A DNA stretch of 64,000 bases from Desulfitobacterium metallireducens DSM 15288 (GTDB lineage Bacteria > Bacillota > Desulfitobacteriia > Desulfitobacteriales > Desulfitobacteriaceae). This document shows, piece after piece, positions 21,419 through 45,157 of this stretch. Each line of letters begins with the position of its first letter. Position 1 is the stretch's first letter. The stretch spans positions 2,852,001 through 2,916,000 of the forward strand of contig NZ_CP007032.1 of the NCBI RefSeq assembly GCF_000231405.2, written 5' to 3'. Made by a program: the position numbers and the translations under genes. The notes beneath the pieces were generated by a model. The model worked only from the letters and a program-made list of their open reading frames with translations, searched no databases and had not been told where the DNA came from.

Positions 21419-21625
21419 GGATGAGCTGGCAAGGCGCGAGCGACTTTTAGCGAGTTGCTACCAAACTCTGCGAAGGGATCCCTGGAGAAGGGGCTGAACA
21501 CAGGACGTGTTCAGCGGGCAACCGAGACATGGATGTCGATTTGCCCGGAACCCCTTCGGAAGGAAGCCCTGAGCAGCTAGTTTGGTTAGCGAGCGCCTCG
21601 GAGGGAGCGCATTGACAGCTCATCC
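21419..21625 (+). repeat. Structured GGA-hairpin element, copy 2
   Basis: A 207-nt non-coding element closed by GGATGAGCTG-G-CAA / TTG-A-CAGCTCATCC. Inside are a long-range stem CCAAACT..CTGC / GCAG..AGTTTGG, a stem GAAGGGG/CCCCTTC, and two hairpins with GGA in the loop: GCTGAACACAGGACGTGTTCAGC-type at 21493-21515 and one at 21516-21546 with the inner GACATGGATGTC. The arms differ in sequence from the 33-44 kb copies but keep the same pairing. The left part of the same gap (about 21240-21418) also holds a strong hairpin (21336-21366) without GGA. Confidence 0.75.
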
Positions 21626-32824: not shown

Positions 32825-32983
32825 TTAACAAATCACGCTCCACCTATAATCGCTTGAGCTGAGCAATTCAGTCTTATTATAGCCTGTCCATTTTGTTTTA
32901 CAAAATTATTGGTCGACGAGGTTAGCTTTTGATGAATCATAAGGTCGAGGTCGAGGTCGAGATTGAGAATGCGTCTGGGGTGT

Positions 32984-33197
32984 GGATTTTGTTTACTCCG
33001 TTCACTCCAGGCGCTTCGCAGACCGAAGCTAAGGCACTGTCTCCACCTCTGGGTCACGGGACGCCGCCAAAATCGTCTCCTGACTCTGTTGGCGGTTGCT
33101 CACGTCCTGTTCGCAACCCTTTGCTTTCAAGCAGGAGCCACTGCCTAAGCTTCGGTAACTGCTTGCTTTAGTCGTTCTCTCCCGTAAATCAAAATCC
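32984..33197 (-). repeat. Structured GGA-hairpin element, copy 3 (left member of pair B1)
   Basis: On the minus strand this 214-nt element is closed by GGATTTTG-A-TTTAC / GTAAA-CAAAATCC. Inside, ACCGAAGCT..AGGC pairs with GCCT..AGCTTCGGT, and two hairpins carry GGA: one closed by GGTTGC/GCAACC with CAGGACG (33094-33118), one closed by CCGCCA/TGGCGG with an inner GTCAGGAGAC (33064-33095). It is head-to-head with copy 4. A short run of three GGTCGA units (about 32942-32961) lies just outside. Confidence 0.8.
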
Positions 33198-33315
33198 ACG
33201 TCCAGGTCTTTCTCGCTTCTTTTTGCATGCATCTGCAGCGCCCGGTGCAGAATGCACCCGCTGCCTCTTGAACAATGCAAGTTGCACATGCAAGAGACCC
33301 ATGAAGTAGCCAGGT

Positions 33316-33540
33316 GAGTTGCGAGTACAGATGCGGAGGCCTTAAGCGAGCAGCTAGCAAACTCGGCGAAAACTGGCTTGCATTAGCGGGGCGGGGCACA
33401 TGGACGTGCCACGCCGACAACAGAGCCAAGGATGGCGATTTTGTCGGGCACCCCGCCCGCTTTCATTAAGCAGTTTGAGCCGTTAGTTTGCTTTGCGAGC
33501 GCCTGGCCGGAGCAGCTGTAATCGCAACTTGCCCCATATA
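33316..33540 (+). repeat. Structured GGA-hairpin element, copy 4 (right member of pair B1)
   Basis: Closed by GAGTTGCGA-G-TACAG / CTGTA-A-TCGCAACTT (one G-T wobble). Inside are GCAAACT..CGGC / GCCG..AGTTTGC, a GCGGGG/CCCCGC stem, hairpin GGCACATGGACGTGCC (33395-33410), and hairpin CCGACAA...TTGTCGG with inner GCCAAGGATGGC (33414-33447). The architecture matches copy 3 on the other strand although most arm sequences differ. The spacer between copies 3 and 4 holds another hairpin, GGTGCA-GAA-TGCACC. Confidence 0.82.
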
Positions 33541-34485: not shown

Positions 34486-34577
34486 CAATATTACCTCGTT
34501 TCTCGCGCGTTGATTTCTTTGTTTATAAGTTTTTATATGTATTCCTATCGGGTTTTTGGAGAATGCGTCTAGGGTGT

Positions 34578-34792
34578 GGATTTTGTTTACTCCGTTCACT
34601 CCAGGCGCTTCTCAGACCGAAGCTAAGGCACTGTTTCCACCTCTGGGTCATCGGGTTCCCGCCAAAATCGTCTCCTGACTCTGTTGGCGGTTGCTCACGT
34701 CCTGTTCGCAACCCTTTGCTTTCAAGCAGGAGCCACTGCCTAAGCTTCGGTAACTGCTTGCTTTAGTCGTTCTCTCCCGTAAATCAAAATCC
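34578..34792 (-). repeat. Structured GGA-hairpin element, copy 5 (left member of pair B2)
   Basis: Nearly identical to copy 3, differing at a handful of positions, with the same closing stem GGATTTTG/CAAAATCC and two GGA-loop hairpins (CCGCC...GGCGG at 34659-34690 and the following GGTTGC/GCAACC hairpin). It is about 90 bp upstream of the acyltransferase gene. Confidence 0.8.
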
Positions 34793-34909
34793 ACGTCCAT
34801 GCTTTCTCGCTTCTTATGCATGCGGCTGTAGCCGGTGGTACATAAAGTACCACGCTACCTCATGGGTCTTATTAGTAATACATGCAAGAGACCCATGAAG
34901 CAGCCCGGT

Positions 34910-35124
34910 GAGTTGCGAGTACAGATGTGGAGGCCTTAAGCGAGCAGCTAGCAAACTCGGCGAAAACTGGCTTGCATTAGCGGGGCGGACACACGGATGT
35001 GTCCGGGCGCCAACAGAGCCAGGGAAGGCGATTCTGGCGCCGATCCCCGCCTGCTTTCATCCACCAGTTTGAGCCGTTAGTTTGCTTTGCGAGCGCCTGG
35101 CCGGAGCAGCTGTAATCGCAACTC
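34910..35124 (+). repeat. Structured GGA-hairpin element, copy 6 (right member of pair B2)
   Basis: Closed by GAGTTGCGA-G-TACAG / CTGTA-A-TCGCAACTC. Hairpin GGACACACGGATGTGTCC (34987-35004) replaces GGCACATGGACGTGCC of copy 4 with both arms changed, and the second hairpin is closed by GGCGCCA/TGGCGCC (35006-35041) instead of CCGACAA/TTGTCGG. These paired changes are direct evidence that the stems matter. The spacer between copies 5 and 6 has GTGGTAC/GTACCAC and CATGGGTC/GACCCATG stems. Confidence 0.82.
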
Positions 35125-35151
35125 GCTCCAGACACATGCTCGACCTTACAT

Positions 35152-42591: not shown

Positions 42592-43332
42592 TTACCGTTT
42601 AGTGGCGAAGGGAGTTGCCCCATATATTTTTGCGCTCGTATCATTTCGAAGGATATGAGCGTCAAGATCATGAATCTCTTGATGGAATTGTTCAATACGC
42701 ACCTTGTCTTTCGCATTGAAAGCATCAATTCCACGATTGAACATGACATCGAGATAATTGCTTAAGGAAGAAGCTTTATTTGCTTCGGCTTCTTTCTTCA
42801 TTTGATTATCCCAGACCGATTTATGAAAAACAATGTACTTCTTGATATCCTGCTCATTCATCTGCGGGCCCGCATTAGGTCCATACAGATAGCCATCCAC
42901 ATATTGATGGACGTTCCAAGATGCACTGAAAGCTAGATTCAACGCGTCTTGACTGAGGGCACCGTCCCCAAAGTAATCTTGTACAGATGGGGCAAGCGCG
43001 AGGTCTTTTGTATCAGGCTCTTTATACTTTTTGGATCCCGAAACATCTCCCTGAGGAGTGACATTGATACCCGGTGGATTCGTTACCGTACTCGCTGGGC
43101 TAGCTCCTGTCGCCTTCGGTTGGCCTGAGGTATTGCCTCCCGCGCCAATTGAGGTCGCGCTAGCATCGTCCACAGGAGGTGTCTGCATAACGACTGGATT
43201 TTGGTCGCCTGAAATTGACCTATCCATAAAGACTTTCCAGGCACTCGGTCCATAAATCCCGCCGACAACAACAGCACCGGCTAATACGAGGGTCCCTGCC
43301 AAAGTGAGTACTTTTCTCTTGTCGAACTCCAT
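42592..43332 (-). CDS. Unknown membrane-anchored exported protein
   Basis: A 246-residue protein I do not recognise. One N-terminal helix (VLTLAGTLVLAGAVVVGGIYG) is followed by a Pro/Gly/Ala/Thr linker at residues ~45-100 and a soluble alpha-helical C-terminal domain of about 140 residues (YFGDGALSQDALNLAFSASW and FHQEIHDLDAHIL). AAGGGAGGG precedes the ATG. Its layout is like that of the unknown exported protein at 40257, though the C-terminal domains differ. An envelope role is likely. Confidence 0.65.
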   Translation of the reverse strand: MEFDKRKVLTLAGTLVLAGAVVVGGIYGPSAWKVFMDRSISGDQNPVVMQTPPVDDASATSIGAGGNTSGQPKATGASPASTVTNPPGINVTPQGDVSGSKKYKEPDTKDLALAPSVQDYFGDGALSQDALNLAFSASWNVHQYVDGYLYGPNAGPQMNEQDIKKYIVFHKSVWDNQMKKEAEANKASSLSNYLDVMFNRGIDAFNAKDKVRIEQFHQEIHDLDAHILRNDTSAKIYGATPFATKR

Positions 43333-43578
43333 GATCTCCCTCCCTTTTAGTTTTGGTTCTATACTTCTTACCTATATTACCAATTTTTGGGAGTAAATCA
43401 TGTCGCATTTGCTGAATTGTTTGGTCCTTTTTCTGCCCTAAGCTTGTCCAAACTGCCACAGGGCGCCTCAAGGCACCTCATCTTCGCGAAAATAAAACAG
43501 CATCCTATTTCCTTTTCTTGCACAAGTTTACTTCTTTTAGCTTTTCTCTTAAAAGGTTGAGGTATTCTCTGGGGATGT

Positions 43579-43850
43579 GGATTTTGTTTACTCCGTTCAC
43601 TCCAGGCGCTTCGCAGACCGAGGCTAAGGCACTGTCTCCATCTCTGGGTCATCGGGTGGTCGCGTGTTTTCGCCATCCTTGGCACCCGCGACACTTGACA
43701 CGTCCTGTGTCATCGCCGCCGAAATCGCCATCCATGGCTCAGTCGGCGGTTCGCACATCCTATGCGCAACCCTTTCCTTTCACGTTGTCTCCACTGCCTA
43801 AGCTTCGATAACTGCTTGCTTAAGTCGTTCTCTCCCGTAAATCAAAATCC
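43579..43850 (-). repeat. Structured GGA-hairpin element, copy 7 (left member of pair B3, four hairpins)
   Basis: Minus-strand element with the same closing stem as copies 3 and 5, but 272 nt because the two-hairpin unit is doubled. The four hairpins in transcript order are CGCATAGGATGTGCG (43766-43752), CCGCCGA...TCGGCGG with inner GCCATGGATGGC (43749-43716), GACACAGGACGTGTC (43711-43697) and GTCGCG...CGCGAC with inner GCCAAGGATGGC (43692-43659). All four loops carry GGA. Confidence 0.82.
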
Positions 43851-43968
43851 ACGTCCAGGTCTTTCTCGCAACTTTAATGCATGCATATGCAACCGGTGGT
43901 ACATCTGTACCACGTTGCCTCATGGGTCATTCAGTCTAACATGCAAGAGACCCATGAAGCAGCCAAGT

Positions 43969-44180
43969 GAGTTGCGAGTACAGATGCGGAGGCCTTAAGC
44001 GAGCAGCTAGCCAACTCGGCGAAAACTGACATGCATCAGCGGGGCGGGCACATGAATGTGTCCGGGCGCCAACAGTGGCAGGAGCCGATTCTGGCGCCAA
44101 CCCCGCCTGCTTCCATCCACCAGTTTGAGCCGTTAGTTTGCTCTGCGAGCGCCCGGCCGAAGCAGCTGTAATCGCAACTC
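43969..44180 (+). repeat. Structured GGA-hairpin element, copy 8 (right member of pair B3)
   Basis: Closed by GAGTTGCGA-G-TACAG / CTGTA-A-TCGCAACTC, with hairpin GGCACATGAATGTGTCC (44047-44063), where the loop reads GAA instead of GGA, and hairpin GGCGCCA...TGGCGCC with inner GGCAGGAGCC (44065-44098). The spacer towards copy 7 has the GTGGTAC/GTACCAC and CATGGGTC/GACCCATG stems seen in pair B2. Confidence 0.82.
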
Positions 44181-44208
44181 GCCCCAAACACTTTCACGCG
44201 AAATCCCG

Positions 44209-44242
44209 CAAAAAATAGACAGGAGAAACATTCCCCTGTCTA
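44209..44242 (-). terminator. Terminator of galU
   Basis: TAGACAGG and CCTGTCTA form a hairpin followed on the minus strand by TTTTTTG, 40 bp after the galU stop. Confidence 0.92.
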
Positions 44243-44281
44243 CATAGGCTGACTCAGCTCATTCAAACTGCTCAGATTAAC

Positions 44282-45157
44282 TTAATTTTCAGCGACTAAA
44301 TTCTTAAGATAGCTCATTAAATCCTCAGAAAGATCCTCACGCCGGAGAGCATATTCGATCGTGGCTTGGACAAATCCAAGCTTATCTCCGACATCATAGC
44401 GACGTCCTTCAAAGTTATAAGCAAGAATTTCCTGAGTCTTTAATAGTTCTCTAAGTCCGTCCGTCAGTTGGATTTCTCCACCTTTACCCGGCTCGACTCG
44501 CTCGAGAATATCAAAGATTTCAGGATTTAAGATATAGCGCCCCATAATCGCTAACCGAGAAGCGGGTGATTCCTCAGGTTGAGGCTTTTCAACAAGGTCA
44601 GAGGCACTGTAGAGTCGGTCAGAAATTTCTGTTCCATCCACAATCCCATACTTTGAGGTCTCCTCGAGGGGGACTTGCTGAACCCCAACGATGCTTGCCC
44701 CATAACGTTCATAATGGTTCATCATTTGACGAAGGCAAGGAACTTCCGAATGGATGACATCATCCCCGAGGAGAACAGCAAATGGCTCATCACCGATAAA
44801 TTTTCGAGCACAATAGATAGCATGTCCTAACCCTAAAGCTTCTTTTTGGCGGACATAATAGATATCCACGAGGCGTGCGATATCTTGAACCATATCGAGA
44901 AGTTCTAATTTTCCCCCATTTTTCAAGAAAGATTCCAATTCCATTGAGCGATCAAAATGGTCTTCAATCGCCCGCTTATTCCGACCCGTTACAATGACAA
45001 TATCTTCGATTCCGGAATTAACGGCCTCTTCCACGATGAACTGAATTGTAGGTTTATCAACAATCGGCAACATTTCTTTAGGTTGGGCTTTTGTCGCCGG
45101 TAAAAAACGCGTTCCTAATCCAGCAGCCGGAATAACTGCTTTTCGAATTTTCCTCAT
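44282..45157 (-). CDS. galU: UTP--glucose-1-phosphate uridylyltransferase
   Basis: A 291-residue nucleotidyltransferase that makes UDP-glucose. Diagnostic motifs are [26 protein letters not shown]-type start (the GxGTR signature and Lys of PKEML), [20 protein letters not shown], and [10 protein letters not shown] near the end. GAGGAG lies eight bases before the ATG. As a single gene with its own terminator next to the polysaccharide cluster, it probably supplies UDP-glucose or UDP-glucuronate precursors for it. Confidence 0.96.

Follow-up and report, generated by a model that had tools for sequence, protein, structure and literature searches.

The GGA-loop hairpins at 43659-43767 of the window, by which we mean the whole 64,000-nucleotide stretch of DNA analyzed here, very probably sit at the tip of a composite repeat of the TwoAYGGAY type (RF01731) that is dispersed, intergenic and non-coding. 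The original prediction had described them as resembling CsrA binding sites and had proposed that many such hairpins on one RNA could titrate a CsrA-like protein in the manner of CsrB/RsmY-type sponges.

Architecture of the composite repeat

The stretch at 43659-43767 sits in a 0.95-kb intergenic region with both flanking genes on the - strand. Comparison of this region with the genome by blastn delimited the repeat copy W1 (Table 1), its limits being the ends of the aligned pieces. The genome contains five long copies of this repeat, of ~570-650 nt; three of them (W1, W2 and W3) lie in the window, all on the - strand, and shorter relatives occur elsewhere in the genome. In every long copy, two units are placed in inverted orientation as unit(rc)-spacer-unit, and each unit is an imperfect long hairpin of ~200 nt, whose tip carries two A(N)GGAN-loop hairpins ~24 nt apart. 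The sequences GAGUUGCGA...UCGCAACUC close the A half, whose GGA tip lies on the + strand, with the corresponding UCC loops on the - strand; GUGGAUUUUGAUUUAC...GUAAACAAAAUCCAC close the C half, whose GGA tip lies on the - strand. Long copies therefore have GGA loops on both strands.

Four GGA hairpins, with positions derived by hand, are indeed found on the - strand within 43659-43767, where they make up two two-hairpin modules. Other examples quoted in the original prediction belong to other copies in the window, namely ACACGGATGTG in 34983-35041 (+) and GACATGGATGTC in 21492-21548 (+). Its total of about seventeen hairpins is roughly right, as we count 15-16 in the window, but it mixes both strands, since the A-half and C-half tips lie on opposite ones. 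W1 has four GGA hairpins on the - strand and the other long copies have two per strand; the second W1 module is without a counterpart in the other long copies, the shared sequence being interrupted at this point in the blastn comparison. In the W1 A half, the first tip loop has decayed from GGA to GAA and now reads ATGAAT.

Table 1. Positions of the features discussed in the text; those without a contig prefix refer to the window.
Feature	Position	Strand	Remark
Flanking ORFs	42592-43332 and 44282-45157	-	Bound the 0.95-kb intergenic region
Intrinsic terminator of upstream gene	44215..44243	-	Gene galU-like, named by eye; lies between that gene and the W1 repeat
W1, whole composite repeat	43547..44196	-	A half, middle hairpins, C half; blastn pieces delimit the common part
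W1 A half	43969..44180	+	Long imperfect hairpin, two-hairpin tip on + strand; UCC loops on - strand
W1 middle hairpins	43886..43962	-	Separate A and C halves
W1 C half	43572..43857	-	Long stem GUGGAUUUUGAUUUAC/GUAAACAAAAUCCAC around GGA tip
W1 two-hairpin GGA module 1	43715..43771	-	Common to other copies; R1 match 72.1 bits
Hairpin CGCATAGGATGTGCG	43752-43767	-	GGA loop
Hairpin GCCATGGATGGC	43727-43738	-	GGA loop; within outer stem 43715-43749
W1 second GGA module	43659..43712	-	Extra tandem copy; relatives in L018
Hairpin TGACACAGGACGTGTCA	43696-43712	-	GGA loop
Hairpin GCCAAGGATGGC	43672-43683	-	GGA loop; within outer stem 43659-43694
W2, second long copy	34568..35135	-	GGA modules 34983-35041 (+), 34658-34713 (-)
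W3, third long copy	32974..33536	-	GGA modules 33390-33448 (+), 33063-33118 (-)
Further GGA module in intergenic element	21492..21548	+	R1 match 65.1 bits
Extra csrA-like genes	G017:C6:115102-115915		
Extra csrA-like genes	G023:C21:11804-12283		
Extra csrA-like genes	G045:C77:99070-99537		
Extra csrA-like genes	G055:C29:69894-70519		
Extra csrA-like genes	G056:C319:298-929		
Extra csrA-like genes	G061:C1:2729184-2729871		

Within the genome, the modules are mostly crowded into C1:2327276-3044781, a segment that covers about the final quarter of the contig. At L018:330-500, several GGA modules occur in one element, one of which is inserted, reversed, into hairpin 2 of another; this looks as though a module could perhaps move or be copied by itself.

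Covariation, loop conservation and distribution

A strict scan for hairpins with an A(N)GGA(N) loop and at least five contiguous Watson-Crick pairs, using Markov-1 shuffles as the null, finds one hairpin in the 43659-43767 stretch, where 0.002 are expected. Across the whole window, the same scan places GGA first among the 64 loop triplets (8 occurrences vs a mean of 2.2). Ten modules from this genome served to build the covariance model R1, in which eight pairs are changed on both sides, whereas shuffles give 3.2 and slid controls 0-2. R1 matches this genome 28 times, with E < 0.001 in 25 cases. In the order, matches were obtained in 35 of 74 genomes, which all belong to one family and represent five of its genera, with 1-68 matches per genome; a class-wide scan returned the same 35 genomes and added none. 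Among the hosts of an exact match to one hairpin are Desulfosporosinus metallidurans and further members of that genus.

The 101 R1 matches have two adjacent hairpins on a common stem with A(N)GGAN loops, in which N is not restricted to Y, and a GGA-to-GGA distance of 23-25 nt within the module. Loop statistics were derived from 75 distinct modules, of which 74 enter the counts for hairpin 1 and 73 those for hairpin 2. The loop of hairpin 1 is nearly invariant (A 73/74, G 67/74, G 73/74, A 74/74), with CGA replacing GGA in seven of the 74, and so is the top of its stem, where the two sides of the closing C-G pair are kept in 69/74 and 74/74 and those of the next A-U pair in 70/74 and 69/74. 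In hairpin 2, the loop A is present in 73/73 and the following N is free (G30 A27 T11 C5). The outer stem pairs, by contrast, vary with compensation. The loops are thus far better conserved than the stems, which is the comparison across copies that had been proposed as a check of the original prediction. Covariation, loop conservation and the shuffle scan together rule out chance or artefact as the origin of the GGA hairpins.

At several Desulfosporosinus-type loci (L089, L081, L097, L100, L092 and L093), a second dispersed hairpin, GACGGCACATTTCATGTGCACCGTC and its variants, adjoins the GGA element, and at some of these GGGGACGGTTCTTG-type repeats also directly adjoin it.

Relation to TwoAYGGAY

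The gathering cut-off of RF01731 is 43 bits, and it is exceeded on the GGA strand of Desulfosporosinus-type copies (L097, 45.5 bits; L089, 44.8 bits; L100, 43.8 bits) and in 22 of 46 genomes of the family. In the window, no Rfam family reaches its cut-off; the A halves of W3 (33351-33498, +) and W2 (34945-35092, +) match RF01731 at full length, model positions 1-168, with 30.5 and 29.6 bits, respectively, both below the cut-off. The best match in this genome, C1:544308-544459, is likewise full length and below the cut-off (37.3 bits). Hairpin 2 has tandem G.A pairs in most of the 75 distinct modules (GA/GA in 57/75, GC/GC in 10/75), and tandem G.A pairs are reported for TwoAYGGAY in what its 2014 description says of the family (PMC4333381).

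TwoAYGGAY was first listed by Weinberg et al. in 2010, where its entry gives it as a probable RNA that is not cis-regulatory (PMC2864571), and in 2014 the text on the family proposed it as a CsrA-binding RNA of Clostridia (PMC4333381). The idea of CsrA binding is therefore not new, and the original prediction is a rediscovery of the published TwoAYGGAY-CsrA hypothesis in a divergent, repeated form. A search for literature on these repeats in Desulfitobacterium or Desulfosporosinus found nothing to the point.

Agreement with CsrA recognition

The original prediction named csrA and fliW in the same genome as something to look for. Both are present; the csrA gene encodes the RNA-binding residues L4 and R44 and overlaps fliW. 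Known CsrA/RsmE sites comprise the CsrB repeat CAGGA(U/A/C)G, the SELEX consensus RUACARGGAUGU and the ANGGAN hexaloop (PMC7652899), and the module loops fit all three. The spacing within the module falls inside the range of 10-63 nt over which two CsrA sites are bridged (PMC7652899) and fits one dimer. The stems, on the other hand, are long, with 7-9 pairs, compared to mostly ≤4 pairs in SELEX CsrA hairpins (PMC7652899).

Among family genomes at least 90% complete, modules occur in 26 of the 29 with csrA and in one of the six lacking it (p = 0.001, ignoring kinship), an association that is suggestive only, because the genomes are related. Many genomes of the order outside the family also have csrA, and the modules have no match in them; within the family, three csrA-bearing genomes are without the element. 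In several genomes, two or more extra csrA-like genes stand side by side, apart from the main csrA (Table 1). GGA modules are fewer where at least two csrA genes are present (median 5 vs 13, p = 0.02, ignoring kinship).

Strand and gene context

Genes were called with a simple codon-usage score from our own script rather than taken from the annotation. The modules are intergenic; of 71 placements for which the genes on both sides were called, none is between divergent genes. At single-module co-directional loci, the GGA strand is antisense to both neighbors in 26 of 35 cases and sense in nine; it is antisense to both in all eight co-directional, informative RF01731 loci, some of which are possibly orthologous, and in genome G012 it is unbiased (9:8 relative to the downstream gene). 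These counts rule out the impression given by the window that GGA is always gene-sense. Folding energy favors the GGA strand in 42 of 59 cases, a weak asymmetry that is much less pronounced than in the RNase P control (28/28). A comparison of G.T and A.C mismatches between strands in Watson-Crick-only folds is not informative, because it gave equal counts in that control.

The functional strand could in principle be the other one, with large NUCCNU-loop hairpins placed directly behind stop codons in the 3' region of the mRNA. This strand is gene-sense in the Desulfosporosinus-type copies, lies in the RF01731 loci at a distance of 26-69 nt from where the preceding gene ends, and is the more stable one in most Desulfosporosinus-type cluster members. 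We nevertheless consider it improbable that GGA marks the wrong strand, as the exchange of tandem G.A for G-C makes sense on the GGA strand, which is also more stable in the remaining clusters and gene-sense in the C halves of this genome.

A dedicated sponge sRNA of the CsrB/RsmY type would have its own promoter and place many GGA hairpins on one transcript, thereby titrating CsrA. The published TwoAYGGAY proposal, within the text on that family (PMC4333381), points in this direction, as do the four consecutive GGA hairpins of W1 and the fact that RsmW is the best match in the stretch from the Rfam clan of TwoAYGGAY, albeit a weak one (19.6 bits, E 0.82). A consensus scan of 43300-44330, however, returned no sigma-70-like promoter (0 vs 0.7 in shuffles) and no terminator after the W1 element, and the upstream gene has an intrinsic terminator before the repeat. 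Long copies other than W1 carry only two GGA hairpins on each strand, and the element occurs in tens of dispersed copies rather than at one or two loci, both of which also argue against a single sponge. Taken together, GGA loops on both strands, the antisense loci, the terminator and the lack of a sigma-70-like promoter in the scanned region speak against a CsrB-like sRNA, which we regard as improbable; the routes that are left for GGA loops to enter RNA are read-through and antisense transcription. What is supported of the sponge proposed originally is the loop consensus, the loop conservation, the presence of csrA and fliW and the near-restriction of the elements to csrA-bearing genomes; the notion of many hairpins on one RNA is not supported.

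Spread and constraint

Many copies in G012 are near-identical, and at least five loci are common to G012 and a congener, G004 or G016. Within genus g5, one G012 copy is absent at the same site in G004, where the site appears empty, and in G016, which has other sequence there. A clean empty site at a second G012 locus was ruled out, G004 retaining a remnant of the C half. Four orthologous pairs were measurable; over these, identity is 90% in the C half, with 8 gap columns, and 73% in the spacer, with 293 gap columns. The changes at paired positions include 15 compensatory doubles, four that yield G.U through a single substitution and 14 that disrupt pairing. That the unit is conserved and compensates while the adjacent spacer decays suggests function, although gene conversion between copies could mimic part of this signal. 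In our reading, the repeat probably first dispersed and has since been retained on account of its structure. In two species (L104 in G012, L182 in G004), the same composite repeat lies immediately ahead of a gene that by eye is purD-like; the two copies differ by exchange of a stem block, GTCGGG/CCCGAC for GAAAGG/CCTTTC, and have identical tips.

The main rival to a role in CsrA binding is a BIME/MITE-like structural repeat, spread by some mobility system and kept as long hairpins that would protect mRNA 3' ends, act in processing or attenuation, or be recognized as single-stranded DNA. The GGA/UCC loops would then be seen by a mobility enzyme, or the UCC and GGA tips would make loop-loop contacts, rather than bind CsrA. 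Such a repeat would account for the strictly intergenic placement away from divergent gene pairs, the presence or absence at one site between species, the near strand-symmetric folding with few G.T pairs and the occurrence of both unit orientations in G012, and the inverted pair does place UCC and GGA tips in one transcript. It explains less well why loop signature and double-hairpin spacing match the CsrA consensus on one strand and why the tandem G.A pairs favor the GGA strand. Moreover, the Y1/RAYT transposase (PF01797) has no match in G000, G016, G053 or G017, hosts of 9-30 modules, which rules out RAYT/REP mobility as the carrier there, and a coding version of the element was not seen. 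A search of plasmids for the element and one of viral contigs, the latter for exact patterns only, gave no match. We see this rival as a serious contender, but on balance doubtful.

Scattered CsrA decoys as a possible mechanism

That the GGA loops serve as CsrA decoys wherever the GGA strand is transcribed is our preferred, if tentative, reading, to which we give slightly less than an even chance. In the proposed mechanism, the GGA strand would be transcribed by read-through from a neighboring operon or by antisense transcription, one CsrA dimer would clamp both loops of a module, and the many scattered copies would jointly titrate CsrA at a low level, beside the protein antagonist FliW. Whether the repeat family has in this way seeded the genome with tens of two-site decoys is a bolder proposition that we think rather unlikely; if true, decoy repeats would add a second, RNA-based layer of CsrA control beside FliW in a FliW-bearing Gram-positive lineage, scaling with copy number.

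The function of TwoAYGGAY has been a standing question since 2010, with CsrA binding as the proposal of 2014. The present data place it at the tip of a dispersed, high-copy repeat that is confined to one family here, associates with csrA-bearing genomes and often runs antisense to genes, which alters what needs testing. A 2020 review left open whether FliW and CsrA-binding sRNAs ever act within the same species (PMC7652899), a question that is touched by the element-bearing genomes, which hold both candidates, FliW and a putative CsrA-binding RNA.

Comparison with known systems

BIMEs are not known to lie between divergent genes, and the module is likewise never found there. Like BIME/REP and other stem-loop repeats (PMC2267715), the element is intergenic, palindromic and multicopy; unlike them, its unit measures ~200 nt and has a conserved GGA tip of two hairpins, and several of its hosts are without RAYT. 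With CsrB/CsrC and RsmX/Y/Z/W it shares GGA in hairpin loops, CAGGAYG/ANGGAN sites and their occurrence in pairs, but those are discrete sRNAs of Gammaproteobacteria, whereas the present element is dispersed, lies on both strands and is known from DNA sequence. The closest relative is TwoAYGGAY, which has the same long outer stem, the same two A(N)GGAN-loop hairpins and the same tandem G.A pairs in the second. The window copies differ from it in scoring ~30 bits or less and in their tens of copies, inverted pairs and tip duplication, and the dispersed-repeat nature seen here has no equivalent in what the consulted portions of the literature say of the family.
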